Positions 994 to 27,909 of a stretch of DNA of 29,232 nt are shown here, one piece after another. The translations under genes and the position numbers were made by a program. Below the pieces are notes generated by a model. That model searched no databases and was not told the origin of the DNA. It was given only the letters and a program-made list of their open reading frames with translations. Each line of letters opens with the position of its first letter. Within the stretch, counting starts at the first letter, position 1. This stretch comes from a virus, in the IMG/VR virus record IMGVR_UViG_3300021964_000354, positions 1-29,232 of that record; one strand, given 5' to 3'.

Positions 994-1031
994 AGTATAC
1001 CATATATAGTGGTTGTGCAAGTTGTTTAAAC
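994..1031 (-). promoter_or_regulatory. Candidate leftward promoter with GTTTAAAC for scaffold and capsid genes
   Basis: On the leftward strand TATACT (999-994) is a good -10 box. ACTTGC lies 17 bases upstream as a weak -35, and the palindrome GTTTAAAC is at 1024-1031, just outside the -35. The 194-bp gap 842-1035 is the only sizeable break in the late operon, so a separate promoter for the highly expressed capsid genes is plausible. The + strand shows TATACCATATATAGT (996-1010), repeated exactly at 19544-19558. Confidence 0.45.
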
Positions 1032-1035
1032 AGGT

Positions 1036-2091
1036 TTATGCTTCTGTAAGTCCTGTAACTGCACCTGCTTGTGTAGTAACAGCACCTAGTTGTGCAGCAC
1101 TTCTTGATTCTGTTTGACGCATTATATTAATTACTTGTTGTAGTTCTTCTTGTTGACCGAGTTGAGTACCTTCCATAATATCTTGAACTGATGGTACATC
1201 TCTACCTTGTGCTAGTGCTTGTTGCTGTATACCTCTTACTTGTTGAAATCCTCGTCTTGCATTTTCAACACTAAGACCTAGACTTCTTAACTCTTCAGCA
1301 ACTTCAAAACTTATATCTGTTCCTGCTAACAATGCCTCTGCACCTATCTGTGCTGTCTGTATTGTTTGTCCTACGACATCTCTAGAAGTAATAGTGCCAG
1401 AAACAATATCTTTACCTATGTTAGGGTCTATTGCAGATAATAATATTTCTTCATCTGTGAGAACTCTACTAAAGTTTCTTAAATAAAACTCTTTGACTTC
1501 TGGTATTGATTCCAAAATATTAGTTCTTACAGCTCCTATTCTTGTACCTAACTCATCAGGTGAAACAACATTCTCTATAAGTTGTGCTTTTCTTTCAGGA
1601 GTTAATACAATATCTGGATTTATATTTATAGATTCAAACTGTCTTCTGTAACCATCTTGTATCTGTGCATACTCTGTTTCTGTGTATTTAACTGTTGCAC
1701 CATCTGGGTTTAGGTTACCTGCAAAAGATACTTTATACTCTGGAGTTTGTCTTACTGCTGCTATAGCAGAAGATTCATCATTACCATTGTCAATGTATGC
1801 TTCTACCCATGTATCTAACAATGGTTGAGAAAGTAAATTACCAAATTTTAATTGACCTTTTTCTACAATTTTATTTTTTGCTTCTTGTGTAAGTGTTGTA
1901 GAGTTACTAACTTTATTAGCTTCTTCTCCTATAGAACCTGCGTAGTTAACTCCACCTAATGTAGAAGATGCTGCTAATGCTTCTTCATAAGATTCTGTAT
2001 AACCTGCACCTGCAATTAATTCGTCAGCTCTTGTCCTGTTTACTTGAAAACCTGTTAGGTCATCTTTTCTATATAAAGTTACTTGTGCCAT
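1036..2091 (-). CDS. Virion-type structural protein, unknown function (351 aa)
   Basis: I do not recognise a family. The protein is acidic, Gln/Glu/Ala-rich and mostly helical in appearance. The C-terminal 80 residues (QQVRGIQQQALAQGRD onward) are glutamine-rich and coiled-coil-like, ending in an Ala/Gly/Thr-rich tail. No signal peptide or membrane segment is visible. Its ATG overlaps the stop of the preceding 486-codon gene (TAATG), so the two are probably translationally coupled. It is the last of a five-gene run of large proteins between portal and scaffold, which suggests a virion component, possibly an internal or ejected protein. TTGCACAACC and GTTTAAAC follow the stop codon. Confidence 0.75.
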   Translation of the reverse strand: MAQVTLYRKDDLTGFQVNRTRADELIAGAGYTESYEEALAASSTLGGVNYAGSIGEEANKVSNSTTLTQEAKNKIVEKGQLKFGNLLSQPLLDTWVEAYIDNGNDESSAIAAVRQTPEYKVSFAGNLNPDGATVKYTETEYAQIQDGYRRQFESININPDIVLTPERKAQLIENVVSPDELGTRIGAVRTNILESIPEVKEFYLRNFSRVLTDEEILLSAIDPNIGKDIVSGTITSRDVVGQTIQTAQIGAEALLAGTDISFEVAEELRSLGLSVENARRGFQQVRGIQQQALAQGRDVPSVQDIMEGTQLGQQEELQQVINIMRQTESRSAAQLGAVTTQAGAVTGLTEA

Positions 2092-3551
2092 TATGTTGCA
2101 AATCCTCTCGATACACCTGTTGCACTAATACCCAATGAACTTGCTATATCATCAGTTGTTGTACCAAATACTTTTGCATTGTCATTGTTTAAACCATATA
2201 TAGTAACTAGCTTACTAGCTTCTGTTTGGTCATTAGATTGTAATATTTTCAACCAAACATCAGAAGTTTCACTCATTCTTTCTCCTAATTTAGTGAAGGT
2301 AAAGTTTCTCCAAGGTGTTGCTATCTCTTCATAAGTAAGATTCTCGTCATACATACTTGTAGGAAAAATACCTTTTCTCATAGCTTTAAATTTATCATTA
2401 AGCATTTGTGTACCAACTTGCTGGGATTCTGCATTTCTAAAATCTGCAGCTAAAGAAGACTGTGTAGCTGTATCAAGTTGTCCATATAAAGGACCTAGCC
2501 ATTTGTATGCTGTATTTTGTACAGTTGCATAACCTGATTTAGTCTGTGATAGTTTGCCTTTACCTTCTAACCAATCAGTTACATTACTATCTACCTCTAT
2601 ACTTGATTCATCATCTGCAATAGCTAGTACCTGAAACTCTGCGTAATTCTTTGTAAATTGACCAGTAGTAACCATATCTCCAAACCACTGTCCAAATGTT
2701 TTACCTGTGTTCTCATCAAAAATACTATCTGCATTTTGTACACCTGATGTCTTTAACTTCTGTGTATAAATTAATCTGTTCTCATCTCTAAGAGCCACAG
2801 CATCTGCAGGTAAGTTTTCATCATCAATACCTCTTGCTTTTGATAATGTTAACCAATCTATTACTTCTTCTGTTGCATTTTCAAACCAGTCAGTTGCTCC
2901 CCACTCTTCAGCAGTAATATCTCTATCTTCTACTAAACCTTGAATCCACAGATTACGAAGTTCTTCATCTGTTTCTAACCATGGTCTTGCATCTATTGCA
3001 GCATCCATAAGTTCTGTAAATCCTTTGAAAGGTGATGTACCTTGCAAAATAACATTAGGTGGCAACTCTGCTAAAGAGTCACCAAAGAATACTGAAGATG
3101 TCCATGTATCATCATCAACTGTTATTTCTTGTGGTTTAGGTCTTCCACTAAAAAATTGTCTTATCTCTTCATCAGTAGAGGCATATCGCATAAAGAATGG
3201 TTGACCAGGTACTTGCCAAACAACATATTTGACTCCATCTCTTACCCATATTTGTGTATTCTGAAATGCTTCGTTAGAAGTTGCTACTGTTGTTCCAACT
3301 GTTGACTCTCCATTGTCTACAATCTCTTCTGTCACAACTTCATCTTCTTCTACTGGTTCTAATAAATAGTTCCAATACACTTCGTTTAAATCTGTTTCTT
3401 GAAATTCCTCTAGTGTAAAAGGTCCGAAACTAGAGTATAAATTACTAGCGTAGTTTTTATACGCATCATAATCTAAATTCTTTCCTGATGCTGCTCCATT
3501 AACTGTTATGTAGTCGTTTAATGTTTTTATAAAAATTTCAAATTCTGTCAT
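2091..3551 (-). CDS. Large acidic virion-type protein, unknown function (486 aa)
   Basis: The protein is acidic and rich in aromatic residues and Glu/Asp. An N-terminal helical segment is followed by a low-complexity acidic stretch near residues 70-90 (EPVEEDEVVTEEIVDN) that looks like a linker. No cysteine clusters or membrane segments are seen. I chose ATG at 3551 (MTEFEIF); a TTG 9 bases upstream would add MNN but sits too close to its AAGAAGG. The start lies just past the stop of the lysozyme-like gene. The operon context with portal and giant protein suggests a structural or injected protein. The reading frame contains one GTTTAAAC (2187-2194) followed directly by CATATATAGT. Confidence 0.75.
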   Translation of the reverse strand: MTEFEIFIKTLNDYITVNGAASGKNLDYDAYKNYASNLYSSFGPFTLEEFQETDLNEVYWNYLLEPVEEDEVVTEEIVDNGESTVGTTVATSNEAFQNTQIWVRDGVKYVVWQVPGQPFFMRYASTDEEIRQFFSGRPKPQEITVDDDTWTSSVFFGDSLAELPPNVILQGTSPFKGFTELMDAAIDARPWLETDEELRNLWIQGLVEDRDITAEEWGATDWFENATEEVIDWLTLSKARGIDDENLPADAVALRDENRLIYTQKLKTSGVQNADSIFDENTGKTFGQWFGDMVTTGQFTKNYAEFQVLAIADDESSIEVDSNVTDWLEGKGKLSQTKSGYATVQNTAYKWLGPLYGQLDTATQSSLAADFRNAESQQVGTQMLNDKFKAMRKGIFPTSMYDENLTYEEIATPWRNFTFTKLGERMSETSDVWLKILQSNDQTEASKLVTIYGLNNDNAKVFGTTTDDIASSLGISATGVSRGFAT

Positions 3552-16703: not shown

Positions 16704-16791
16704 ACTTATCACATTCTTTATTCTTACACTTCATGTCGTCCTTTGGTAGCAACACCTCTCCACAACTTGGACAGGGGATTATAATACTCAA
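16693..16791 (-). CDS. Possible 32-residue zinc-ribbon protein (TTG start)
   Basis: A frame from TTG at 16791, directly after the stop of the previous gene, encodes a peptide with CPSC (7-10) and CKNKEC (22-27), the two halves of a zinc ribbon, and ends inside the terminase gene (11-base overlap with ATG 16703). The paired cysteines in so short a frame are unlikely to be chance, but there is only a weak AAGAAAAAA ribosome site and a non-ATG start. It may help couple terminase translation. Confidence 0.5.
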   Translation of the reverse strand: MSIIIPCPSCGEVLLPKDDMKCKNKECDKYGR

Positions 16792-17389: not shown

Positions 17390-17451
17390 TAGTAACCTTT
17401 TTTCTTTTTCTTTCCTTTGGAAACTTTTTTCTTTTTTACTTTATATTTCAT
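17389..17451 (-). CDS. Possible 20-residue lysine-rich leader peptide
   Basis: From ATG 17451 the frame encodes MKYKVKKKKVSKGKKKKKGY, with 12 Lys in 20 residues, and its stop overlaps the next ATG (TAATG), so translation would be coupled. No Shine-Dalgarno precedes it; TATAGT lies exactly 6 bases upstream of the ATG (17463-17458), which fits a leaderless mRNA. It may be a true basic peptide or a leader feeding ribosomes into the operon. Confidence 0.45.
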   Translation of the reverse strand: MKYKVKKKKVSKGKKKKKGY

Positions 17452-17457
17452 AGTGTC

Positions 17458-17489
17458 ACTATATCACAAAACCTCCCCGAAGGGAGGTT
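17458..17489 (-). promoter_or_regulatory. Hairpin with UUCG loop followed by TATAGT, head of late operon
   Basis: On the leftward strand AACCTCCC-TTCG-GGGAGGTT (17489-17470) is an 8-bp stem with an extra-stable UUCG tetraloop, followed by TTTTGTGA and TATAGT (17463-17458). The hairpin plus T-rich tail could terminate leftward transcripts coming from the intergenic region, and TATAGT would be the -10 of the next unit, starting at or very near ATG 17451. No -35 is recognisable; the hairpin occupies its place. Confidence 0.5.
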
Positions 17490-17590
17490 CTGTCGTACAG
17501 TCTGTCCATTTACTGTAATGAAAAATATGAAATCCACAAAACTATCACATCTCTTTACATCAGTACACCATATACTTTTGTTACTTAAAG

Positions 17591-17656
17591 ATGAAAAGTT
17601 TTCTTTCTTTTCATAAATTGAATTGTATCCTCATACAATTGCCTGGATTTTCCAGG
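17591..17656. repeat. Three consecutive perfect hairpins
   Basis: ATGAAAAG/CTTTTCAT (17591-17598 with 17607-17614), AATTGTAT/ATACAATT (17621-17628 with 17633-17640, 4-base loop) and CCTGGA/TCCAGG (17642-17647 with 17651-17656, 3-base loop) follow one another within 66 bp. None has a long T-run directly after it on either strand. They lie between the late operon head and the 43-residue zinc-ribbon frame. Their function is unknown; candidates are a replication origin, RNA processing or protein-binding sites. Confidence 0.55.
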
Positions 17657-17664
17657 TATAAACA

Positions 17665-17796
17665 CTATAGTACAGGCGCGATTATATCGTTGAGAAAAAT
17701 TTTTTTATTTTGACACTTGTCACATAAACCATCAGTAAGTTGGTCCGCCCAAAAAGGTTGTAAACACTTGTCGCAATCTTCTACTGGTATATCCAT
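17665..17796 (-). CDS. Possible 43-residue zinc-ribbon microprotein
   Basis: The frame from ATG 17796 encodes a peptide with CDKC (8-11) and CDKC (25-28), separated by LQPFWADQLTDGL. This is a clear treble-clef or zinc-ribbon knuckle pair, ending in a hydrophobic tail (IFLNDIIAPVL). There is no Shine-Dalgarno. TATAGT lies exactly 6 bases upstream of the ATG (17808-17803), preceded by a GCAA-loop hairpin, the same arrangement as at 17451. It would be the first gene of the leftward unit. The cysteine pattern makes it more likely real than chance. Confidence 0.5.
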   Translation of the reverse strand: MDIPVEDCDKCLQPFWADQLTDGLCDKCQNKKIFLNDIIAPVL

Positions 17797-17802
17797 ACTG
17801 TT

Positions 17803-17832
17803 ACTATAGCAAAGCCTCACTTGCGTGAGGCT
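17803..17832 (-). promoter_or_regulatory. Hairpin with GCAA loop followed by TATAGT
   Basis: Leftward strand: AGCCTCAC-GCAA-GTGAGGCT (17832-17813), an 8-bp stem closed by a GNRA tetraloop, followed by TTGC and TATAGT (17808-17803), then AACAGT and ATG 17796. It has the same layout as the element at 17458-17489. It may be a terminator followed by a -10 for a leaderless start. Confidence 0.5.
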
Positions 17833-17840
17833 AGTACTAT

Positions 17841-17900
17841 ACAAACAAAGAAAGGAGGGCTATATATTAATCCAGAAGGATTGATTTATATTGCCTTTCT
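17841..17900 (+). ncRNA. Orphan leader plus long imperfect hairpin
   Basis: ACAAACAAAG followed by AAAGGAGG (17841-17858) has the same leader and ribosome-site layout as several early genes here, but no ATG or GTG follows. Instead the sequence folds into a long imperfect hairpin centred on an AGAA loop (17874-17877), with AATCC/GGATT and TATA-rich arms closing up to GGGC/GCCT, in all about 18-20 pairs with a few mismatches. It could be a small RNA, a terminator-like structure or a decayed gene start. Confidence 0.35.
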
Positions 17901-17945
17901 CTGCTTTTAGTATAACATACATTACCACTATGCAAGTAAAAGGTG

Positions 17946-18005
17946 TGGGGTTTCTGTGGTTGGGCGTAAGCGAAAGGAGGAAACTCTTACTAAACAAAAA
18001 CCCCA
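17946..18005 (+). ncRNA. Candidate nested stem presenting an anti-SD-like loop
   Basis: TGGGGTTT (17946-17953) pairs with AAACCCCA (17998-18005). Inside it GTAAG (17966-17970) pairs with CTTAC (17986-17990), leaving CGAAAGGAGGAAACT in the loop. No start codon follows the exposed AAAGGAGG. It may be a structured RNA element or chance in an AT-rich region. Confidence 0.25.
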
Positions 18006-18617
18006 TAATAAATACTACCACTAAAAACAAAGCATGGTATAGTAAAGAAACAAGCAAAGGTTTCTTCCTGCTTTTAGAAAAGGAATCTTGACAATATACA
18101 GTCAATAAAGTGGCACAGCAGGTCCATGGTAACTAGGGTTAAAGCCTATTACTTCACATATTTATTTGTTACTATTTTTAGTTCATTCTGGTTTTGGGAG
18201 GGAGTGACACAGGGTTAGAAGTACTGACCACTACAGTAAAGTAATATATTTATTTTTCACAATACTTACACTTAGTGATTTTTATTTCACAAATTACCCT
18301 TATTGTGTACATACTACATCTAGTACCACAATATATAGTACCACCTTTAACAGCATATCTTTTCAGGGTACAATACAATACAATAGGGGTACACACATTA
18401 AACCCCCCCTAATTTGTCCTATAATATACATTATGTTGCATTCGGTTATATATAGTAATTAGGTTTCTTTTGGATAAGTCTATAAACACTATGATTCAAT
18501 ATAGGGTGACAATGTACCTAGTTTAAACAGTTACAAGAGAGGGTATGCCTGTTAATACTCTCTAACCTTATCTAAAGAGTGGTAAAAAAAAACTAAGAAA
18601 TCTAAAAGAAATACTTT

Positions 18618-18642
18618 GTTTAAACTGAGTATGTTGTATACT
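18618..18642 (+). promoter_or_regulatory. Early promoter overlapped by GTTTAAAC
   Basis: TATACT (18637-18642) is a strong -10. The -35 is weak (CTTTGT or TTGTTT at 15-17 bases) and is overlapped by GTTTAAAC (18618-18625), the position of a classical repressor operator. The transcript would start about 6 bases after the -10, at AACAAACAAACAAAGG, the leader of the protease gene. Confidence 0.55.
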
Positions 18643-18671
18643 TCTATTAACAAACAAACAAAGGAAAAAAA

Positions 18672-19394
18672 ATGAAACAACTACAAGCAACAAACAAAAG
18701 ACACATGAGCCACTTGAAAGCAAGTGACTTAAAGCCAGAAGAATACCTTACAAAATTCGCTGAGTACTGTGTCGAGTTGGCTATTCAATCTGGTTGGGGC
18801 AGTCGTGAAAACCTAGGCACTGGGTTAACTGTTCACATCTCGGATACACGAGGAAGAAAAACCTCGGCTAATGCTAACCTAGGCCATGCAGTCGGAATCT
18901 GTTGGCACTCAATAACTTCGGAGGGTAATCACCGAAGAATTGAAATAGACCGAGAAACATCCGATACCATGAAAGCGTTGGAGATAGTGGCTCACGAGGT
19001 AAGCCATGCAGTAACCCCAGAAGATACAGGGCATAAAGGGGCATTTGTGGAATTGGTGTTTGGCGTGTTTAAACTGGGAGGAATACCAACAGCAACAGCA
19101 CCAACAGAGGAATTTCAACAACTAATATGGAATTGGTTAGAGCAAAATGGTACTTACCCACATATTAGATTTGTGGATAAAAGACCTAAGCAAACAACAA
19201 GAATGGTGAAGTTAGCATGTGCAGATATAAACTGTGCAGGAGCAACAGAAAAGAGCGTGAGGAATGGAGAGGGTACAATTTGGAGAATGTCTTCGGCAGT
19301 AGTTTTGAAAACTGTTGACCTTTTACAATGCCCAGTATGTCAAGGGTGGGATATTATCCTCCCCGAAGATATGCCCCAATCAATATATAAATAA
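18672..19394 (+). CDS. SprT-like zinc metalloprotease
   Basis: This 240-residue protein carries HEVSH (108-112), the HExxH zinc site, followed by a third-ligand candidate in DTGHKGAFVE (His121). That layout is typical of the SprT/Spartan (WSS1-like) gluzincin group, and a C-terminal zinc ribbon (Cys 183, 188, 220, 223) is also usual for SprT. Cellular relatives cut DNA-protein crosslinks. In a phage, possible roles are clearing proteins from DNA or processing host proteins early in infection, which is inference. AAAGGA lies 9 bases before the ATG. It is the first early gene, with its own promoter and terminator, and holds a GTTTAAAC (19067). Confidence 0.8.
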   Translation: MKQLQATNKRHMSHLKASDLKPEEYLTKFAEYCVELAIQSGWGSRENLGTGLTVHISDTRGRKTSANANLGHAVGICWHSITSEGNHRRIEIDRETSDTMKALEIVAHEVSHAVTPEDTGHKGAFVELVFGVFKLGGIPTATAPTEEFQQLIWNWLEQNGTYPHIRFVDKRPKQTTRMVKLACADINCAGATEKSVRNGEGTIWRMSSAVVLKTVDLLQCPVCQGWDIILPEDMPQSIYK

Positions 19395-19418
19395 CTAACT
19401 AACCCCCCTAACAACAAG

Positions 19419-19443
19419 CCCCCTTTATTAAGGGGGTTTTGTT
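19419..19443 (+). terminator. Rho-independent terminator after protease gene
   Basis: CCCCCTT (19419-19425) pairs with AAGGGGG (19430-19436) across a TATT loop and is followed by TTTTGTTT. It ends the protease transcript 25 bases after its stop, so the next genes need their own promoter. Confidence 0.85.
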
Positions 19444-19543
19444 TACCCCTATTTACACGATAGAGCCTATTTAAGAGCCTCTTATTGATTAGGCTACTGT
19501 CTACCACTCTTGACACAGAAACCCCTTAGAAACGATTTAAACC

Positions 19544-19683
19544 TATACCATATATAGTATGTACGAAAATAATGTGAGCTTGTTTAAACAGGGGTAGACA
19601 GGTCAACAACTAAATTATTATTTCTTTGTAAATAGTTGTTGTATAAATCATAGATGTAGTAAGGTTAGTAGTAACAAACAAAG
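19544..19683 (+). promoter_or_regulatory. Complex early promoter module A (GTTTAAAC, CAACAAC/GTTGTTG repeat, AACAAACAAAG leader)
   Basis: In order: TATACCATATATAGT (19544-19558); GTTTAAAC (19582-19589); an inverted repeat CAACAACTA (19604-19612) with TAGTTGTTG (19633-19641); a candidate -35 TTGTTG (19636-19641) formed by the right arm; 18 bases on, TAAGGT (19660-19665) as -10; then leader AACAAACAAAG (19673-19683) and ribosome site. A copy with the same internal spacings lies before the gene at 21836. The repeat over the -35 suggests operator control. Confidence 0.55.
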
Positions 19684-19692
19684 TAGGAGAAT

Positions 19693-19944
19693 ATGAAAAG
19701 CGAACACAAAACAGAAATTAAAAAGAGCTTAGGGGTTTCAATCTCTAAGGTGTGTGAATGGGATGGAAGTGACATTCTTGACATCATGCAAATAGCATTG
19801 GAAGATTCAAACTTCCATGATGTAAATAGAGCAATAGAAAAAGTTAGAGCTGACCTAAGTCTTATCTCTAATATGAGTTACTGCTTAGGAATTGGTGGAG
19901 AATCTCCAGAAGAAAAAGCATTTGAACAATGGCAAAATAAGTAA
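19693..19944 (+). CDS. Small early protein, unknown (83 aa)
   Basis: The protein begins MKSEHKTEIKKSLGVSISK and is mixed-charge and largely helical; residues 40-65 (NFHDVNRAIEKVRADLSLIS) look like an amphipathic helix. No family is recognised. GTAGGAG precedes the ATG by about 6 bases. It is the first gene of the long early operon driven by promoter module A, and its stop is followed by AAAGGAGG and GTTTAAAC leading into the next start. Confidence 0.7.
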   Translation: MKSEHKTEIKKSLGVSISKVCEWDGSDILDIMQIALEDSNFHDVNRAIEKVRADLSLISNMSYCLGIGGESPEEKAFEQWQNK

Positions 19945-19961
19945 AGGAGGATGTTTAAACA

Positions 19962-20183
19962 ATGATAGACGAACAAATTATAAAACAACAATTAGAACAT
20001 ATTAAAACAACACAGGCACATTTAGAGAGGTGGCTTGACCTTGACAGAGTGGAGGAGATTACTGCTGAGATAATGACTTCGTTCAAAGGGTTGACCGACC
20101 ATGTAATTAAGAGAGATATAAATATTATTTCAAGAGAGATTCTTGGGGGTAGTGTTGAAGACTTAATGAAAGGGGATGTTTAA
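19962..20183 (+). CDS. Small helical early protein, unknown (73 aa)
   Basis: The sequence MIDEQIIKQQLEHIKTTQAH starts a coiled-coil-like N-terminal half, and the rest is helical and mixed-charge. No family is recognised. AAAGGAGG, then GTTTAAAC (19953-19960), then one A precede the ATG. The stop TAA at 20181-20183 is inside the next GTTTAAAC (20178), giving a C-terminus KGDV. Confidence 0.65.
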   Translation: MIDEQIIKQQLEHIKTTQAHLERWLDLDRVEEITAEIMTSFKGLTDHVIKRDINIISREILGGSVEDLMKGDV

Positions 20184-20186
20184 ACA

Positions 20187-20636
20187 ATGACAGGCGAAAG
20201 AGGAATAGATTTCAGTAACTGTTATTACGCTAACTTCTGGGCGTTCAAAGAGATGGACAAGGAGGAACAGAAAGAATATGTTTTGGTTCATGCAGTCAGA
20301 GAAATGGCGCATGAATGGTGGGGTGGTCATGCTTTCCTACTTAACAAAAAGACTAATAAGATTTTGGATTTCTCTAATGGTAAAAGATTAGAGGGAACAA
20401 AAGAGGAGATGTTTAAACAGTGGAACATTCAAGAGGATGGATTAAGAATGTATTACGAATATACATTTAAAGAATCTGTTATCCAATGTGCTAAGACTGG
20501 TACTTATGGAGCTTGGGATTTACTGTTTGAAGACTGGAAGAACGAAGAATGGGGTAGCTATATGAATAACTATTTCATTCCAACATTCCAACCAGACCTA
20601 TACCAATTACGACAAACAAAGAAAGGGGTTGTTTAA
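20187..20636 (+). CDS. Early protein, unknown (149 aa)
   Basis: The protein is rich in aromatic residues (many Trp, Tyr, Phe). Residues 35-65 (HAVREMAHEWWGGHAFLLNK, then TNKILDFSNG) have a strand-turn-strand look reminiscent of papain-like or transglutaminase-type folds with a catalytic-looking His, but a Cys nucleophile is not evident, so I assign no function. The start follows GGGG and GTTTAAAC plus A. The stop is inside the next GTTTAAAC (20631), giving C-terminus KKGVV. Another GTTTAAAC is inside the frame (20411, encoding M-F-K-Q). Confidence 0.65.
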   Translation: MTGERGIDFSNCYYANFWAFKEMDKEEQKEYVLVHAVREMAHEWWGGHAFLLNKKTNKILDFSNGKRLEGTKEEMFKQWNIQEDGLRMYYEYTFKESVIQCAKTGTYGAWDLLFEDWKNEEWGSYMNNYFIPTFQPDLYQLRQTKKGVV

Positions 20637-20638
20637 AC

Positions 20639-20821
20639 ATGAAAGAATATTATTTTGATGATAAGAATTATATGAATCATTTTAAACGAGCATTTAAAAC
20701 TGGACTGTTTAAGGAGAACGAACCTTATATGTACATGGGAGAAGATAAAGAGAAAGTTTATTTTAAACATGGACTAACAAGACAGTACAAACATTTAATA
20801 AAAGAAAGGGAGGTTGTTTAA
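20639..20821 (+). CDS. Small Tyr/Lys-rich early protein, unknown (60 aa)
   Basis: It begins MKEYYFDDKNYMNHFKRAFK and is strongly basic and aromatic. No family is recognised. The ATG directly abuts GTTTAAAC (20631-20638), with AAAGGGG before it. The stop TAA is inside the next GTTTAAAC (20816), with C-terminus REVV. Similar size and edges to its neighbours suggest it is one of a series of interchangeable small accessory genes. Confidence 0.6.
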   Translation: MKEYYFDDKNYMNHFKRAFKTGLFKENEPYMYMGEDKEKVYFKHGLTRQYKHLIKEREVV

Positions 20822-20823
20822 AC

Positions 20824-21717
20824 ATGTACAACAAAGAACTAAAACAAACAATAACAAAAGGACAGGCAGTTGAGATTGCAGACGCAGAAATTTTCAACAG
20901 TCAAGTAAAGCCAGTAAGACTAGATGGAAGTGGCAACAGGCACAGAAGTCAGGGGTACAAGCCTAAGAAAGAGGTACTAGACAGGACAGAGTTAGACCTA
21001 ACGATTAGTTGTGACTCAATTTATAATGCCGACCATACCAATCTATTTATAGATGGCGACAGGTATGGAGATGGAATCAGAGTTGTTGGGTATGCAAAAG
21101 AAAAAGGTAAAGATTACAGAGATGACAAGACAAATGGATTCTCTATCTACTTAGACAATGAGGAGCAGATAATTCAATTTGCTCAGCAGTGCTTAGATGT
21201 ACTAGCAATTAAGAAAGAGAAAGGGTATTTGTTTAAACAGTATGAAGACAAACATCCAGAACTACTTAATCACTTTCCTAATCTAAAGGAAAGAACTATG
21301 TGCGAAACTGGATTGTACTACTGGGATGGTAGTTTAAACAAGGTAGTAGAAATTACAGAAGAAACAGATGGCGACCTGTTAGCAGACCATCCAACATACG
21401 ATACAGATGAAGATGGGAACTTTGAGCCAGACTACTGGAACGAAAAAGCCATGAAGAAACTACAAGGAATCATAGAGGGCGAGAAGTGTGGATGGTCAGG
21501 AGATACATACATGGACATCAACATAGGAGAGTTGCAAGTCGGTGGTACTTACCGAGATGGCTACCATGCTAGGAAAGTACGCACAGAAGAAGACAAAAGA
21601 AAAAAGAAATGGATTACTACATTCTTATACAAAGATGGAAGACAAAGAACTCTTGATGGTAAGTGGGAAGTAACAGACTATGGAACTCTATATAGAGATA
21701 CATGGGGAGAAAACTAA
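20824..21717 (+). CDS. Early protein, unknown (297 aa)
   Basis: This is the largest unknown of the early block. It begins MYNKELKQTITKGQAVEIAD and contains an acidic, Asp/Thr-rich region near 185-205 and a Trp/Gly/Asp-rich C-terminal half with probable beta structure (GDTYMDINIGELQVGGTYRD). Basic KRKKKW precedes the last 30 residues. No catalytic motif or membrane segment is recognised. The ATG abuts GTTTAAAC (20816-20823) with AAAGGGAGG before it. Two more GTTTAAAC copies are inside the frame (21231, 21332), and a fourth follows the stop (21724) at the start of promoter module B. Confidence 0.65.
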   Translation: MYNKELKQTITKGQAVEIADAEIFNSQVKPVRLDGSGNRHRSQGYKPKKEVLDRTELDLTISCDSIYNADHTNLFIDGDRYGDGIRVVGYAKEKGKDYRDDKTNGFSIYLDNEEQIIQFAQQCLDVLAIKKEKGYLFKQYEDKHPELLNHFPNLKERTMCETGLYYWDGSLNKVVEITEETDGDLLADHPTYDTDEDGNFEPDYWNEKAMKKLQGIIEGEKCGWSGDTYMDINIGELQVGGTYRDGYHARKVRTEEDKRKKKWITTFLYKDGRQRTLDGKWEVTDYGTLYRDTWGEN

Positions 21718-21723
21718 GACAGT

Positions 21724-21824
21724 GTTTAAACACATAGCACATAGTCAACAACCATCTATAAATAATATTGTAAATGGTTGTTGCTAAGTGTCAATGTGTG
21801 GTAACATGGTAACAACAAACAAAG
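21724..21824 (+). promoter_or_regulatory. Complex early promoter module B, copy of module A
   Basis: GTTTAAAC (21724-21731), then after the same 22-base offset CAACAACCAT (21746-21755) pairing perfectly with ATGGTTGTTG (21774-21783). TTGTTG (21778-21783) is a candidate -35, TAACAT (21802-21807) 18 bases later the -10, then leader AACAAACAAAG (21814-21824) and GGAG. TTGTAAATRGTTGTTG is shared with module A. The 10-bp stem could also terminate weakly or attenuate readthrough from upstream. Confidence 0.55.
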
Positions 21825-21835
21825 GAGAACAAACA

Positions 21836-22171
21836 ATGGCTAACGAAATAAAATCATTTCAAGGATATGTAAACCAATCTTTGATGGACGCAGGTAAACA
21901 CAAGACAGAAGATTACTTAGAGATAATGACTGGGTTGTTTGAACAAGGACATCTAAACATACATCAAGTATTTCTGTTTATGCAGACCTTAATAGTTAAG
22001 GCAGAGGATAAGAAAGTAAGAAGTTACTTAGAACTTAACCCAACTATTGCTAATAATGTGCAAGACACAATAGACTATGGATTCGTAACAGAGGATGGAG
22101 AGTTAACTCAACACTGTATTGACACTCTAACTAAAGAGGGTTACGAAGTAGAAACAAAGGAGGTTGTTTAA
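21836..22171 (+). CDS. Early protein, unknown (111 aa)
   Basis: I start the gene at ATG 21836 (MANEIKSFQGYVNQSLMDAG), which has AAAGGAG 8 bases before it; an in-frame ATG at 21788 lies inside the promoter module and has no ribosome site. The protein is helical and acidic; residues 30-55 (LFEQGHLNIHQVFLFMQTLI) form an amphipathic or hydrophobic helix pair. No family is recognised. The stop lies in GTTTAAAC (22166), giving the C-terminus KEVV shared in style with two other genes. Confidence 0.65.
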   Translation: MANEIKSFQGYVNQSLMDAGKHKTEDYLEIMTGLFEQGHLNIHQVFLFMQTLIVKAEDKKVRSYLELNPTIANNVQDTIDYGFVTEDGELTQHCIDTLTKEGYEVETKEVV

Positions 22172-22173
22172 AC

Positions 22174-22443
22174 ATGGCTAAGAACATTCAATATAAAGTA
22201 GATTTCTACCAAACAGTTTATCTTGGTAGTCAATTAGTTGAAGCCGAAGACAGGAAACAAGCTATAAGTGACGCAGAAGATATGAATTGGAAAGCAGGTA
22301 TCGGTCTAAAGTGGGCAGATGATTGGGAAGCAGAGATTGATACAGACCACGACTATCTTTTTATATGCACTTCTCATTCTAAACAAGAGTGTGAAGATGA
22401 TGAGTGTAACGAAGAATATTGGAAAATAATGGAGGAAGAATAA
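22174..22443 (+). CDS. Small acidic early protein, unknown (89 aa)
   Basis: It begins MAKNIQYKVDFYQTVYLGSQ, with two probable strands and a helix (LVEAEDRKQAISDAED). That strand-helix pattern recalls small phage proteins with YxVxVxxxxxxxVEAxseeEA repeats, whose function is unknown. The C-terminus is very acidic and has two Cys (QECEDDEC). The ATG abuts GTTTAAAC (22166-22173), preceded by AAAGGAGG. The stop overlaps the next ATG (TAATG). Confidence 0.65.
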   Translation: MAKNIQYKVDFYQTVYLGSQLVEAEDRKQAISDAEDMNWKAGIGLKWADDWEAEIDTDHDYLFICTSHSKQECEDDECNEEYWKIMEEE

Positions 22444-22634
22444 TGGTTTGGGAAGTAATACAACTAAGTGAATGCAGAAATAAATTTCCTAGCAACGCAC
22501 AAGATAATGTTGTTAATGGTAGTTGTACAAACACAGAGATATATGGAACACATCATTTAGATTTTGGTAATGGACTAGAAGCTATTGAAATGTGTAAAGA
22601 ATGTTATGAAGATTGGGATATGGGAGGATATTAA
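22443..22634 (+). CDS. Small early protein, unknown (63 aa)
   Basis: I place the start at ATG 22443 (MVWEVIQLSECRNKFPSN), which overlaps the upstream stop and follows GGAGGAAG at 5-6 bases; an in-frame ATG at 22419 would overlap the preceding gene. Four cysteines (two in CKEC near the C-terminus) suggest possible metal binding. No family is recognised. Confidence 0.6.
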   Translation: MVWEVIQLSECRNKFPSNAQDNVVNGSCTNTEIYGTHHLDFGNGLEAIEMCKECYEDWDMGGY

Positions 22635-22723
22635 TGTCAGTATATATAGAGTGTTGTTCAGTCAGCACACCTTATCCACCATACATACAAGCAATAGATT
22701 GTGACTGTAAGGAGAAAGAATAA
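22634..22723 (+). CDS. Cys-rich microprotein (29 aa)
   Basis: The frame MSVYIECCSVSTPYPPYIQA continues to a CDC motif and KEKE, with four Cys in all. Start and stop both overlap the neighbours (TAATG), so it fits the operon tiling exactly. The ribosome site is weak (GGGAGGAT). No family is recognised. Confidence 0.5.
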   Translation: MSVYIECCSVSTPYPPYIQAIDCDCKEKE

Positions 22724-22941
22724 TGTTCGCAGTAACAACTAAAGAATGTATACATTGTAGGCAGACAGGTACAGTTATGGTTGATAGGAGAGCTTATAAA
22801 GAGTTTACCCAAACACCACGACACCTACGCAGATTAATACAAGATATATTTCCAGAACATAGCAGAGCTGAGCGAGAGCAACTGATGACAGGTGTTCATC
22901 CAGAATGTTTTGAAGAAATGTTTAGAGGAGAAGGAGAATAA
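22723..22941 (+). CDS. Small zinc-binding-type early protein (72 aa)
   Basis: The N-terminus has CIHC (9-12), and a later HPEC region (about 59-62) could complete a metal site. The middle is Arg-rich and helical (HLRRLIQDIFPEHSRAEREQ). No specific family is recognised. AAGGAG lies before the overlapping TAATG start. Nucleic-acid or protein binding is possible. Confidence 0.6.
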   Translation: MFAVTTKECIHCRQTGTVMVDRRAYKEFTQTPRHLRRLIQDIFPEHSRAEREQLMTGVHPECFEEMFRGEGE

Positions 22942-23171
22942 TGGCTGAGTTAAAACAACTCTATCGTTTAAAAGATAAAGAGAAGAAAAACTATAAGAAA
23001 CTTAATAAAATACACAAGGAAAATTATTGTTTACATTGTGGTTACTTAGGTGGGGATAGTGAAGAACAAAGACAATGGGAATTAAATTACATTAAACAAG
23101 AGGGCGTTTGTAGTGCTTGTGATAATGAAGATTTAATACAAGATATAGCACAGAGAGAGGGAACAGAATAA
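22941..23171 (+). CDS. Small zinc-ribbon early protein (76 aa)
   Basis: A basic N-terminal helix (MAELKQLYRLKDKEKKNYKK) is followed by CLHC (30-33) and, about 25 residues on, CSAC (57-60), a likely zinc ribbon. No family is recognised. The start and stop overlap the neighbours (TAATG), with GGAGAAGGAG before the start. Confidence 0.6.
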   Translation: MAELKQLYRLKDKEKKNYKKLNKIHKENYCLHCGYLGGDSEEQRQWELNYIKQEGVCSACDNEDLIQDIAQREGTE

Positions 23172-23320
23172 TGGCTCATACATTAATGACTATGATTGAA
23201 AATATACATTCACAAATTCAAGAAGTGCTTAACGATAATGTAAACAAACTTGATATACAGAATGCACTATATCAATTAGAAGAAGTAAGAGATATTGTAG
23301 ATATTATGGGAGCAGAATAA
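23171..23320 (+). CDS. Small helical early protein (49 aa)
   Basis: The frame MAHTLMTMIENIHSQIQEVL encodes a likely coiled-coil or two-helix hairpin, acidic at the end (VDIMGAE). The start overlaps the upstream stop (TAATG) after GAGAGGGA, and its own stop forms TAATG with a further 27-codon frame that runs through a hairpin. No family is recognised. Confidence 0.55.
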   Translation: MAHTLMTMIENIHSQIQEVLNDNVNKLDIQNALYQLEEVRDIVDIMGAE

Positions 23321-23321
23321 T

Positions 23322-23363
23322 GTTTAAACAGGTAGTAGGGTTTCCCTTTGTTTCCCTACTACC
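23322..23363 (+). terminator. GTTTAAAC followed by strong hairpin
   Basis: GTTTAAAC (23322-23329) is directly followed by GGTAGTAGGG (23331-23340), which pairs perfectly with CCCTACTACC (23354-23363) across a 13-base loop. There is no T-run, so it is not a classical intrinsic terminator; it may be an attenuator, an mRNA-stabilising end or an operator. A 27-codon frame (23320-23403, MFKQVVGFPFVSLLPTPLSN...) crosses it. Confidence 0.5.
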
Positions 23364-23448
23364 TACACCTCTAAGTAATATTTATAAAAGACTATACATA
23401 TAGACAATAAGGACACTATAATTAAACATATATTGACATAGGAGAACT

Positions 23449-23601
23449 ATGAAGTACTTAGTAAGAAGTCTATCCATGTTCGGTGGTAGTGAAACATGGA
23501 AGTTTGATGACAAGCACGAGGCTATGTGCAAGGTTAGAGAACTTAAAGACACAGGTGGAATGTTCTTAGTAAGAGTTATAGAACTAGAACCTGCTAACTA
23601 A
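23449..23601 (+). CDS. Small early protein, unknown (50 aa)
   Basis: The frame MKYLVRSLSMFGGSETWKFD has a strand-helix-strand look ending in VRVIELEPAN. This is similar in style to small phage proteins with an 'xEAxxxVRELKxxG' helix. TAGGAG lies 7 bases before the ATG. A TTGACA (23433) just upstream has no suitable -10. No family is recognised. Confidence 0.6.
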   Translation: MKYLVRSLSMFGGSETWKFDDKHEAMCKVRELKDTGGMFLVRVIELEPAN

Positions 23602-23639
23602 ATAAACAAACAAAAGAATATGAGGATAAGGAGGAACAA

Positions 23640-23840
23640 ATGCCTAACATATTTAATGAGCCGAAAGAACTAAAGAAGTGGGCTATCAAATTAGCTAATG
23701 CTTGTGGAGGACAACGAGTAGAAAAGACTTTAGTTATGACTAAGGTTAACCCCCAACGCATAACTGAATTGATGGATGAGTTTGTTACAGACCACAATGA
23801 GAACACAATTAAGATAGCTAAACAAATGGAGGAGGAATAA
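23640..23840 (+). CDS. Small early protein, unknown (66 aa)
   Basis: It begins MPNIFNEPKELKKWAIKLAN and is basic and helical in the first half and acidic at the end (IAKQMEEE). AAGGAGG lies 7 bases before the ATG, with an AACAAACAAAAG leader variant (23605) upstream. The terminal Glu codons GAGGAGGAA supply the ribosome site of the next gene. No family is recognised. Confidence 0.6.
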   Translation: MPNIFNEPKELKKWAIKLANACGGQRVEKTLVMTKVNPQRITELMDEFVTDHNENTIKIAKQMEEE

Positions 23841-24025
23841 TGGATTGGTGGATACCGATACTGATAGCAGTGTTACTAATATCTTTAGTGATGTTAGCCA
23901 TGACACTGGTTGCAGTATGCTTATGGATTTATAACAACATACCTTTTAAATACATAAGACTTAATAAAGACGCAGTAAATTTCATAGACGAATTACAAAA
24001 AGATATCTATAAGGAGGATATATAA
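23840..24025 (+). CDS. Small membrane protein (61 aa)
   Basis: Residues 3-31 (WWIPILIAVLLISLVMLAMT and onward to WIYNN) form one long transmembrane segment; the remaining 30 residues are a charged cytoplasmic-type tail. No signal cleavage site is seen. Early expression, away from the lysis cassette, makes a holin less likely than a membrane-targeted host-interaction or superinfection protein, but function is not shown. Confidence 0.65.
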   Translation: MDWWIPILIAVLLISLVMLAMTLVAVCLWIYNNIPFKYIRLNKDAVNFIDELQKDIYKEDI

Positions 24026-24250
24026 ATGGGAATACAAGAGGAACAGTTGTTTAAACAACTTGATAGAATACAAAAAGATATTGAGTTACAAAAGAAAATA
24101 CTTGATGAGAAACTAGAGCAGAGAAAAACTGTCGTCAGGTTTTGTTACAATACTAAAAAAGTATCTGCAATAAAAATAGCACAGGCTCTTAACATGACCA
24201 GACAAAGAGTCTATGTACTTATAGAGGACAAGAAAGACGAGGAGGAATAA
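24026..24250 (+). CDS. Small HTH DNA-binding protein with coiled-coil N-terminus (74 aa)
   Basis: Residues 5-35 form a coiled coil (GIQEEQLFKQLDRIQKDIEL region). Residues 46-67 (VSAIKIAQALNMTRQRVYVL) are a good helix-turn-helix of the sigma-70 region-4 or MerR-like kind, with Ala-x3-Gly-replaced-by-Asn turn. It is a candidate transcription regulator of the early block, and the only clear DNA-binding regulator in the window, so it is a natural candidate for the GTTTAAAC sites; that link is speculation. GGAGG lies 8 bases before the ATG. Its frame contains a GTTTAAAC (24049). Confidence 0.65.
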   Translation: MGIQEEQLFKQLDRIQKDIELQKKILDEKLEQRKTVVRFCYNTKKVSAIKIAQALNMTRQRVYVLIEDKKDEEE

Positions 24251-25164
24251 TGGATAAAGAAACATATAAGAAGTTGACTAAAGACTTTCCTAAAAGTGTT
24301 GTTAAGAAAGCGCCACAAGGTAAGTTTGGCGACTATGTACCCCATCATATCTACACACAGAGATTAGTAGATGTTATTGGTGGAGGTTATGACTTTACTT
24401 TTGAAGAAACCAGAGATAAAACTGGAGCAATCATAGGTGCTAAGTGCAGACTATACATTAAGTCATCAGACCAAACAATAGAAGAAGTTGGGGATGTTGA
24501 TATGAATGCAGTAAAAAGAAACATAACTGAATCAGAGATATTAAAACTTGCAGTATCAGATGGTATTAAAAGATGTTGTATGAGATTAGGTATTGGCTTG
24601 GAGCTATGGACAGGCGGGGTTACAGAGGAAGAACACTATTCAACGCCACAAGTAGAGGTATCTAAACCTAAGATGACTAAGGACAAAGAGGACATTGAGT
24701 CATTAGAGAAAGCAAAGAAAGAGTTTGCTGAATCTATACAGGAAAAACCAGTCAAGAAAGCAGAGGGAAAAAATGCTAAACAACTTAACTCTGTAATATC
24801 TGGATTTGGTTTACCAGAAGATGTAGTTAAGGTGTACAAAGCCACTGCGTTTAAACAGTCAGGACTTTCAAATGATGTTGAGTCTTGGTCTAATGACGAC
24901 ATGAGTAAATTCTTAGACTTGTTTGAGGAGCAGACAAAGAAAGAAGTTAGCCCAATAGAAGAAGTATTTGGAGAAGTTGCAGACATATCTAAGTACTGCC
25001 CAGATTGTGGGAAGACAGAGTACATAGAAGACAACAGAGAAAAGAAGCAATCAGACCCTAAGTTTGCCAACATACCTAGTTGGACTTGTAGCAACTACAA
25101 GGAAAAAAATGGTTGTGGTTGGACTGCTTGGGGAGATACTGACTGCCCAACAGAGTGGCTTTAG
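24250..25164 (+). CDS. Rad52-type single-strand annealing protein
   Basis: The first 125 residues match the Rad52/Rad22 DNA-binding fold as I know it: GKFGDYVPHHIYTQRLVDVI (26-45), a beta-rich middle (CRLYIKSSDQTIEEVGDVDM) and SDGIKRCCMRLGIGLELW (about 103-120), the signature helix of this group. It anneals complementary single strands in phage recombination and concatemer formation. The C-terminus adds a zinc ribbon (CPDCGK at about 252 and two later Cys before CGWTAW), unusual for the core family. The start overlaps the upstream stop with GAGGAGGAATAATG. A GTTTAAAC (24849) lies in the linker. Confidence 0.8.
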   Translation: MDKETYKKLTKDFPKSVVKKAPQGKFGDYVPHHIYTQRLVDVIGGGYDFTFEETRDKTGAIIGAKCRLYIKSSDQTIEEVGDVDMNAVKRNITESEILKLAVSDGIKRCCMRLGIGLELWTGGVTEEEHYSTPQVEVSKPKMTKDKEDIESLEKAKKEFAESIQEKPVKKAEGKNAKQLNSVISGFGLPEDVVKVYKATAFKQSGLSNDVESWSNDDMSKFLDLFEEQTKKEVSPIEEVFGEVADISKYCPDCGKTEYIEDNREKKQSDPKFANIPSWTCSNYKEKNGCGWTAWGDTDCPTEWL

Positions 25165-25460: not shown

Positions 25461-26123
25461 ATGAAAACATTAGATAATGTATTAGAAGAATTTACAGGTA
25501 ACTGGAGAGGTTATAGTTACTATTACGATAAAAAATTAAGCGATAAAAGAAGAACAAAAGATACTAGAAGAAAGTATCTTATAGAACAAGCTAATTATAG
25601 AAGAACTAATTTTGTTTTTCGTAATTGGCAGGGTAAATTCTATTATGGAGAATACATTCCTACTGATGAAGAATTATTTTATAGTAATAATAGTTGGTCT
25701 GAAAAAATTATAAATTTTATTTGTCATTATGAATACGATTTTTTGTATAAGAATTTTTCAGATAGACAAAGTAAAACTTTGAAATGGCTTTTCCAATATC
25801 ATATAGAAAGAGCAAACGATATTAAACAAAAGAAAGTTAAAAAAGATAAATTAGAACTTGCATTAAGTCAATTACATAAAGAAGATTTAGTACAACTTTT
25901 AATGTTAAAAGATAAACATTTACAAGATATGACCGCGAAATTTCAAAAATTTGAAACTAATTATGTTGAAAATGAACAAAAAACTATAAAAGCAAAACAA
26001 AAAATGAGAGCCTATAGAGGTCTTGCTTGTGTAGTTTTAGATATGGATGTACAAACTGTAAATAAAATATTAGATAATGTTAGAAAAAACAAAGTTACTT
26101 TACAAAAAGCATTAGGAAAATAA
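25461..26123 (+). CDS. Basic protein of unknown function (220 aa), AT-richer than neighbours
   Basis: The N-terminal 90 residues are Tyr/Arg-rich (WRGYSYYYDKKLSDKRRTKD), the middle (95-180) is helical and Lys-rich with coiled-coil character, and the C-terminal 50 residues resemble a small helical DNA-binding domain (MRAYRGLACVVLDMDVQTVN). No family is recognised. Codon use differs visibly from the neighbours, with a strong preference for A/T-ending codons (AAA, AAT, TTT) where adjacent genes use more AAG and AAC, suggesting later acquisition. GGAGG lies 7 bases before the ATG, and the next gene uses the same junction. Confidence 0.6.
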   Translation: MKTLDNVLEEFTGNWRGYSYYYDKKLSDKRRTKDTRRKYLIEQANYRRTNFVFRNWQGKFYYGEYIPTDEELFYSNNSWSEKIINFICHYEYDFLYKNFSDRQSKTLKWLFQYHIERANDIKQKKVKKDKLELALSQLHKEDLVQLLMLKDKHLQDMTAKFQKFETNYVENEQKTIKAKQKMRAYRGLACVVLDMDVQTVNKILDNVRKNKVTLQKALGK

Positions 26124-26680: not shown

Positions 26681-26736
26681 TTAGTGGCACTATGTACCAC
26701 AAGATTGTACAGTTTTTATACGATTACCTTAGTTGT

Positions 26737-27909
26737 TTAAACTGGGTAGTAATTATCCCATCCTTTATCGCTAATTGTAAAAGTGAGAACACCTGGGTGC
26801 GACCAAAGTCCAGTACTAGCAGTAAAGTCTATGCTCTTATCTATTGATGGTGCTTGAAACCAAGTCCTGTCACCTTGTTGTTTCATTCTTAGGTGATGGT
26901 AATGAGCAGTTACTAGAATCTCCGAGTCACCACTAGGTAGAAATCCAAACATCTGTCCTTTCCACCATGCTTCTATCTTTGCCTCTGGGTTTCCTCCACG
27001 ATTACCACTCATGTGTCCATGAGTAAAGCTACAAGACTTACCCTTAATCATTAATGTCTGGTGAAATCCCTCTGGTATGTTTACTTCTACCTTGCCATAC
27101 CTATCTGGGTTAGCAGACATTATCTCTCTACATATCTGTAGGTGCATAGTATCAGAGTTATCTAATCTTGATGTAGCTACCTGACCTTTACTTGTTCTAG
27201 ACATTTCTCCATGGTTTCCTGGTACTCCTGCGAGTACTAGCTTAGGTGCATGAGGTAGGAATGTGTCAATCGTTTTCATAATCATTGACCTAGCTAATGC
27301 GTATTGCTCAATCAGTGAGAGAGAAACATTGTGTGGTTGGCTTTCGTAAAAATGTGGTGTACAGTTTTCTGTGAGGTCACCTAAACCTACCATATAGATT
27401 TCATCTATCTGTACTCCAAGTTTACGCAGGTCTTTAATCCTGTTTACTCCATCTTGTAATGCCCTATCGTATCTCTTGATAGTGTTCTCAACTCCATAAT
27501 CTTTTTTTCCGAGTTGCCAGTCACTCATAAACCACATGAACGCTGTGTCACCTGCATTGTATTTCTTTTTTATGGGTGGTTTTTTCTTAGCGTGTTTAAA
27601 CAACTCTTGAAAATATCTATCGTGTCCAGGTTTTTTCTTACGAACAATACCTTTAAACGCATAAAAGGTTTCTACTGTTCCACCTTTAAGCTGTGTATTC
27701 CAAGATGAAGCTCTTACACTACCTTCAATTTCGTAGTGTTTGGGGTCGAATCCCCATTCTTTTAATATAGAATCGAATTTATTTCTGTAGTTTGGGTCTG
27801 TTCCTACATGAGTAATCTCACCTAGACCAGTCTGTTCATTGACTTCTAGTCCTGGTTGCCAACCAGTCTTGTAGAAATTATTACCCCATTCCTCTGGTAT
27901 GTTAGGCAT
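26737..27909 (-). CDS. Calcineurin-like metallophosphoesterase (SbcD/Mre11-type)
   Basis: All the metal-binding blocks of the family are visible: MSDWQLG (128-134), GLGDLTEN (175-182), GVPGNHGE (228-235), THGH (296-299) and TAHYHH (334-339). The 110-residue basic N-terminal part is additional. Related phage proteins are usually called SbcD-like DNA exonucleases or phosphoesterases; no SbcC partner is seen. It may trim DNA or nucleotides. AAGGAGG lies 7 bases before the ATG, and a TATACT -10 at 27943-27938 gives it its own promoter. Its stop codon TAA lies inside GTTTAAAC (26735), and a second GTTTAAAC (27594) is inside the frame. Confidence 0.88.
   Translation of the reverse strand: MPNIPEEWGNNFYKTGWQPGLEVNEQTGLGEITHVGTDPNYRNKFDSILKEWGFDPKHYEIEGSVRASSWNTQLKGGTVETFYAFKGIVRKKKPGHDRYFQELFKHAKKKPPIKKKYNAGDTAFMWFMSDWQLGKKDYGVENTIKRYDRALQDGVNRIKDLRKLGVQIDEIYMVGLGDLTENCTPHFYESQPHNVSLSLIEQYALARSMIMKTIDTFLPHAPKLVLAGVPGNHGEMSRTSKGQVATSRLDNSDTMHLQICREIMSANPDRYGKVEVNIPEGFHQTLMIKGKSCSFTHGHMSGNRGGNPEAKIEAWWKGQMFGFLPSGDSEILVTAHYHHLRMKQQGDRTWFQAPSIDKSIDFTASTGLWSHPGVLTFTISDKGWDNYYPV

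Follow-up and report, generated by a model that had tools for sequence, protein, structure and literature searches.

The 29.2 kb IMG/VR fragment of a marine phage analyzed here (29,232 nucleotides of record IMGVR_UViG_3300021964_000354; hereafter, the window) is rich in an 8-letter palindrome, GTTTAAAC, and this octamer, or its one-base variant GTTTACAC, is coupled to a gene for a SprT-like protein across very different phages. The association of octamer and gene suggests an undescribed system of phage gene control. With a probability that we put at about 0.58, GTTTAAAC is the site of a phage regulatory system marked by the SprT-like gene, the product of which would bind the octamer, repress transcription and act as a roadblock. 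In phages whose hosts are Proteobacteria, Cyanobacteria, or Actinobacteria, a family annotated as protease but without a known role is now tied to a precise DNA site; if the binding is true, the stoperator strategy would exist in a second form that arose independently and employs proteins of a class not known for sequence-specific DNA recognition. A search of the open-access literature, with the papers returned for the octamers judged by title and abstract, found none that connects phage regulation with SprT-like proteins or with either octamer.

Co-inheritance of the octamer and the SprT-like gene

In the window, the late genes run leftward (including the terminase gene, 14784-16712), and a divergent region at approximately 17.4-18.7 kb separates them from the small early genes, which form a rightward block and include one for a Rad52-like annealing protein. 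GTTTAAAC occurs 20 times against 1.25 expected under an order-2 Markov model, close to the single copy anticipated in the original prediction, which was made from the letters alone; all 20 coordinates listed there are exact, and the cluster of 16 copies claimed for positions 18521-24856 is borne out, with two copies in the first 18.5 kb and the other two at 26735 and 27594. Thirteen copies extend to a 10-bp palindrome. The next most common palindromic 8-mers reach four copies each, and the reversed word CAAATTTG, used as a control, is absent from the window.

Relatives found in the same viral collection were gathered via the terminase and the annealing protein, with the genes of unannotated contigs called by a simple script, and were divided into motif-rich and motif-poor. 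In the terminase tree, the two kinds are interleaved in several clades, and the motif-rich contigs do not form one clade. Every motif-rich contig extending as far as the locus, 14 in number, has the SprT-like gene (18672-19394 in the window), and each of the 21 motif-poor contigs lacks it, counts that, coming from related contigs, are not independent; the motif-rich contigs without the gene are short and partial or (apparently G001) end at that region. It had been proposed that related phages without the octamer at aligned positions would speak against its significance; such relatives do exist, but only among those that lack the SprT-like gene as well, and across the related phages the pattern is inherited together with this gene. 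A substitute palindrome was looked for in the motif-poor relatives, and none was found. The helix-turn-helix (HTH) protein encoded at 24026, previously named as a candidate binder, was rejected as the cognate regulator because it fails to track the motif: motif-poor G028, G029, and G010 have homologs, and a search of motif-rich G017, G018, G041, and G042 yielded none.

When viral and genome collections were searched with the SprT-like protein alone, 79 usable loci were obtained. Enrichment for GTTTAAAC or GTTTACAC reaches p<1e-3 in 66 of these and p<0.01 in 74; at most loci, including several phages with GC content >0.55, the octamer ranks first among all 8-mers. The controls were 42 contigs of phages lacking the gene, and only one of them passes. 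Among 49 diverse phages bearing the gene, the SprT-like family is the only one widely shared (46 phages), the next family being present in nine. At 35 of 75 loci, compared with approximately 10 expected, the SprT-like gene has an octamer site upstream, and in bacterial genomes the gene was found at four loci only, each enriched for one or the other octamer. Several independent lines thus show the coupling of gene and site. The sole control that passes, the 44.6 kb contig G037, is moderately enriched, containing GTTTAAAC eight times against 1.7 expected, and has no detectable SprT-like gene.

The hosts of the named phages carrying GTTTAAAC are alpha-, beta-, and gammaproteobacterial as well as cyanobacterial. 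Dinoroseobacter R5C has 17 copies, R26L 20, Pseudanabaena Pan1 16, and Methylophilales Venkman 34; smaller numbers are found in Mica (7), Alexa (8), KA2-1 (7), Arya (7), ep3 (4), and Persinger (4), and each of these six phages has a copy some 15-30 nt ahead of its SprT-like gene. In actinophages with a homolog, GTTTAAAC is mostly missing, and the top over-represented AT-containing octamer is GTTTACAC, which occurs 43 times against 0.05 expected in Streptomyces Microdon, 26 against 0.13 in YesChef, 22 against 0.08 in Zeta1847, 19 against 0.24 in Soondubu (which has three GTTTAAAC in addition), and 17 against 0.19 in Maureen, with a further 27 copies in Powerpuff, 28 in Cen1621, and 17 in Caron.

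Placement of the octamer and selection at the DNA level

Five of the 20 window copies (19953, 20178, 20631, 20816, and 22166) lie 0-1 nt before a start codon, filling the gap that follows the Shine-Dalgarno sequence. Among the 230 genes of six related genomes, no offsets close to the start codon are favored except -9, seen in 20 genes, and -8, seen in five, and about half of the copies in relatives are intragenic. Upstream of the first early gene, the arrangement GTTTAAAC-N11-TATACT (18618-18642), a putative early promoter predicted from sequence, recurs in the majority of those relatives for which the upstream region was read. The features of the window are as follows (position, strand where one applies, description).

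1024..1031: GTTTAAAC between two leftward late genes
2187..2194: GTTTAAAC within leftward late gene 2091-3551
18521..18528: GTTTAAAC upstream of the putative early promoter, in conserved non-coding context
18618..18625: GTTTAAAC, proposed operator in the early promoter, 11 nt upstream of TATACT; kept in most relatives inspected
18637..18642, + strand: TATACT, hexamer resembling a -10 element, in the proposed early promoter; TATACT, TAAACT or TACACT in relatives
18672..19394, + strand: first early gene, 240-aa SprT-like zincin with C-terminal zinc ribbon, phrog_6361; proposed cognate protein (profile match, conserved residues, co-occurrence, AlphaFold2)
19067..19074: GTTTAAAC within the SprT-like gene
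19582..19589: GTTTAAAC, intergenic
19953..19960: GTTTAAAC in the gap from Shine-Dalgarno to ATG (19962)
20178..20185: GTTTAAAC in the gap from Shine-Dalgarno to ATG (20187)
20411..20418: GTTTAAAC within gene 20187-20636
20631..20638: GTTTAAAC abutting the ATG at 20639
20816..20823: GTTTAAAC abutting the ATG at 20824
21231..21238: GTTTAAAC within gene 20824-21717
21332..21339: GTTTAAAC within gene 20824-21717; context common to several distant motif-rich relatives
21724..21731: GTTTAAAC, intergenic
22166..22173: GTTTAAAC abutting the ATG at 22174
23322..23329: GTTTAAAC, intergenic
24049..24056: GTTTAAAC within HTH gene 24026-24250
24849..24856: GTTTAAAC within the Rad52-like annealing gene 24250-25164; kept by near relatives, lacking in motif-poor homologs
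26735..26742: GTTTAAAC across the 3' end of leftward gene 26737-27909
27594..27601: GTTTAAAC within the metallophosphoesterase gene; clearest synonymous conservation

Several intragenic copies are conserved through synonymous codon choice. In cases that are not independent of one another, motif-rich relatives with the same dipeptide at an in-gene site have the octamer in 219 of 253 instances, whereas in motif-poor homologs with the same dipeptide it is absent 67 times and never present. At the metallophosphoesterase site, the window and every motif-carrying relative use TTG or CTG for leucine followed by TTT AAA C, whereas five motif-poor relatives encode the same Leu-Phe-Lys with CTA or TTA for leucine, or TTC for phenylalanine, such that the octamer is absent; one of these five metallophosphoesterases is 97.9% identical to that of the window over the protein. 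Motif-poor G013 combines a metallophosphoesterase gene that is 98% identical to the one at 26737-27909, but is without the octamer, with a different early block, which points to a recent transfer of this gene between a phage that has the SprT-like gene and one that does not.

Copies that overlap promoters are found in the window family, in ep3, and in cluster AZ phages, and at several promoters of YesChef, Maureen, and Powerpuff, GTTTACAC directly follows a -10-like TAGACT; in Microdon and YesChef, it also occupies the gap between the Shine-Dalgarno sequence and the ATG. On coding strands, the asymmetric GTTTACAC is present both ways (24/17 in Microdon and 11/8 in Zeta1847), with YesChef and Soondubu leaning one way, and this occurrence in both orientations argues for a double-stranded DNA site over an mRNA signal. 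The sites are spaced more evenly than expected by chance in R26L, Microdon, YesChef, and Pan1; in the early block of the window, evenness is borderline (p 0.08), and in relatives G003 and G018, p is approximately 0.01. The possibility that the motif is the -10 element of per-gene promoters was rejected because the copies at start codons would put the transcription start inside the open reading frame.

The SprT-like protein

The protein combines a zincin motif, H108-E109-x-x-H112 with H121 further on, and a C-terminal zinc ribbon. Across 51 aligned members, H108, E109, H112, and H121 are invariant, and so are Q174, T176, R177, and K180 (QTTRxxK), located just before the ribbon. The phrog_6361 profile, listed as a family of unknown function, matches 11 of 11 members (best E 8e-15); against Pfam PF10263 (SprT-like), the window protein scores 13.7 bits, below the cut-off of 25.6, and the best of the 11 members reaches E 8e-5. 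The AlphaFold2 model has a predicted local distance difference test score (pLDDT) of 90, and with it Foldseek returned weak zincin matches only, including Spartan (6mdx, E 0.08) and CapP (7t5t); a sequence search of the PDB found no relative. The family shares with SprT, Spartan (SPRTN), and Wss1 the HExxH zincin signature, a further histidine, and a C-terminal zinc-binding region, but differs from them in the invariant QTTRxxK before the ribbon and in the tie to a specific DNA octamer; the Pfam score of the window protein is low, and the fold match to 6mdx is weak. Members in named phages include R5C gp103, Powerpuff gp49, and Microdon gp72.

Proposed mechanism and alternative explanations

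These observations are best accommodated by a dispersed-operator (stoperator-like) system, of which the SprT-like protein is probably the cognate protein. According to this scenario, the SprT-like protein would be made first, from the early promoter, and would bind GTTTAAAC as double-stranded DNA, probably via the zinc ribbon and the invariant QTTRxxK. At 18618, it would repress its own early promoter, whereas at the dispersed copies, it would stand in the path of RNA polymerase as a roadblock and so dampen early transcription; in temperate relatives, the prophage would probably be silenced by the same system. We infer that the SprT-like protein itself is the reader of the site because it is the only shared gene, because the site changes with the protein clade, and because the site often lies upstream of the protein's own gene and an invariant polar strand lies by the zinc ribbon; repression and roadblock are the outcomes suggested by the placement of the copies and the stoperator precedent. 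Since no match to a tyrosine or serine integrase was found in the window lineage, the system there probably times early transcription rather than governing lysogeny. More tentatively, and at somewhat less than even odds, the phrog_6361 SprT-like zincins might constitute a new class of sequence-specific DNA-binding regulators, in which the ribbon would read GTTTA(A/C)AC, with repression of the own promoter and roadblocks at dozens of sites, and which would include the missing immunity repressor of the temperate cluster AZ and EH actinophages.

Several observations weigh against the SprT-like protein as such a regulator. The zincin center is intact, although a regulator that does no more than bind DNA could dispense with it, and no DNA-binding regulator is among the weak Foldseek matches. 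Transcription factor sites are not usually as strict as this octamer; variants with one mismatch show no enrichment in those named GTTTAAAC phages that were checked (12 against 12.1 expected in R5C, 8 against 7.7 in Pan1, and 48 against 70.5 in Venkman). Locus L246 has no octamer over 9 kb, and Quenya, CN1, and Epa43 have clear SprT-like homologs and essentially neither octamer, with no convincing cognate word found for any of the three. Finally, as the window lineage shows no integrase match, classical prophage silencing is inapplicable to it.

In the main rival reading, the SprT-like protein is a protease that clears a repressor away: a different protein, from the host or a small one from the phage, would occupy the octamers, and the SprT-like protein would act as an antirepressor. 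Proteases relieving HTH repressors exist in mobile elements, namely, the ImmA-ImmR, IrrE-DdrO, and CapP-CapH pairs, and the present system resembles these precedents in that an HExxH metalloprotease, of a mobile element or of a bacterium, is linked to control by dispersed or promoter sites; the invariance of the zincin residues in the 51 members and the presence of CapP and Spartan among the weak fold matches fit such a role as well. However, no conserved HTH partner was found beside the SprT-like gene and no second gene family is shared, the next best reaching nine of the 49 phages, although diverged small repressors could escape blastp. A host repressor would need to have been retained in hosts as far apart as cyanobacteria and gammaproteobacteria, and the sites are missing from close relatives of the motif-poor kind obtained in the same marine sampling; moreover, the site changes with the SprT-like clade, which points to that protein as the reader. 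On balance, we consider an antirepressor unlikely, if still worth serious attention.

Considerably less probable is a role in DNA structure, replication, repair, or recombination, where evenly spaced octamers would serve as loading points for the SprT-like protein, which would help to maintain or package the genome. SprT/Spartan proteins are DNA-protein crosslink proteases that act on DNA-bound proteins, recombination-type genes lie in the same early block, and the genome-wide spacing is even in R26L, Microdon, YesChef, and Pan1, but in the window family and in Venkman the sites are concentrated in early genes, and the copies in promoters, in start-codon gaps, and, often, upstream of the SprT-like gene look regulatory. 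The replication or recombination signal that the original prediction had also entertained finds no support in the placement in the window (start-codon gaps, promoter, coding sequence, mostly early genes). An effect at the level of translation, with the octamer acting in mRNA beside the start codon, as proposed for the start-associated sequences of cluster K phages, would explain the strong preference for positions 0-1 nt before start codons, seen likewise in Microdon and YesChef, but seems more improbable still: only a quarter of the window copies (5/20) are so placed, about half of all copies in relatives are intragenic, other copies lie where the early promoter is not transcribed, coding strands of Microdon and Zeta1847 carry the asymmetric variant both ways round, and the start-codon gap may be the sole free space in compact operons. 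Chance, compositional artefact, or shared descent alone is refuted by these data. It is true that an AT-rich octamer in an AT-rich genome invites this explanation and that near relatives share copies by descent, but the expected count is 1.25, the control word is absent, enrichment is equally strong in phages with GC content of 0.6-0.7, and all 67 motif-poor cases in which the dipeptide is retained lack the octamer.

Comparison with known phage regulatory sequences

The stoperators of cluster A (L5-type) phages are 13-bp asymmetric sites present in dozens of dispersed copies, one of them in the early promoter, and are bound by a repressor with an HTH and a stoperator domain, for which repression of initiation plus an elongation roadblock has been proposed (PMC9283540, PMC6550527). 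The window is similar in having many dispersed copies of a short site, one in the putative early lytic promoter, but its site is an 8-bp palindrome or, elsewhere, the one-base variant GTTTACAC, the linked protein is a SprT-like zincin, the window lineage has no integrase match, and binding is here a prediction. The earlier interpretation has held up in part: the proposal that the octamers are distributed as L5 stoperators are, and bind a regulator, agrees well with the dispersed sites, the early-promoter copy, the conservation at the DNA level, and the even spacing in several relatives, whereas the HTH protein named as the candidate binder finds no support.

The start-associated sequences (SAS) and extended SAS (ESAS) of cluster K are short repeats that adjoin start codons within the non-structural genome half; the SAS is a 13-bp asymmetric sequence with the consensus GGGATAGGAGCCC, which includes the Shine-Dalgarno core, and is located nearly always at gene starts and in one orientation (PMC3203893, PMC11373665). 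The earlier comparison with these elements applies to position and to nothing beyond it: some copies of GTTTAAAC adjoin start codons at the -9 and -8 offsets, but many are intragenic, the octamer differs in sequence and follows the Shine-Dalgarno sequence instead of including it, and GTTTAAAC is palindromic and GTTTACAC present in both orientations. The cluster K phage Adephagia likewise encodes a SprT-like protein, gp75, a weak match to the window family (E 2e-5), and contains neither octamer. Directly upstream of gp75 in Adephagia (JF704105, L355), there is a long inverted repeat, TGTTGACATGCATAC ... GTATGCATGTCAACA, together with an SAS; there, too, the SprT-like gene is beside a repeated regulatory sequence, one of different sequence.

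Implications for temperate actinophages

Cluster AZ phages, such as Powerpuff, are temperate and form homoimmune lysogens but have no identifiable repressor (PMC8758107). These phages carry the SprT-like gene near a serine integrase along with 26-27 GTTTACAC sites, and therefore, the repressor idea is testable at once; the SprT-like gene and the octamer suggest themselves as a candidate for repressors not yet found.

Additional observations

In Bordetella phage CN1, TACTTCTT is the top enriched AT-rich octamer (15 against 0.58 expected) and occurs just upstream of the SprT-like gene (record 31375); it may be a promoter element or CN1's own cognate word. In the window, TGCTTGTG is likewise over-represented, with 11 copies against approximately 0.8-1.4 expected, and TATTCCTCC recurs with the appearance of a minus-strand Shine-Dalgarno context. 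The 220-aa product of early gene 25461-26123 has no homolog in the relatives compared and no PHROG match. Between the divergent late and early genes, positions 17400-18650 form a stretch of about 1.2 kb that is largely non-coding, the short open reading frames there being weak, and that contains hairpins with the look of terminators, AACCTCCCCGAAGGGAGGTT and GCCTCACTTGCGTGAGGC.

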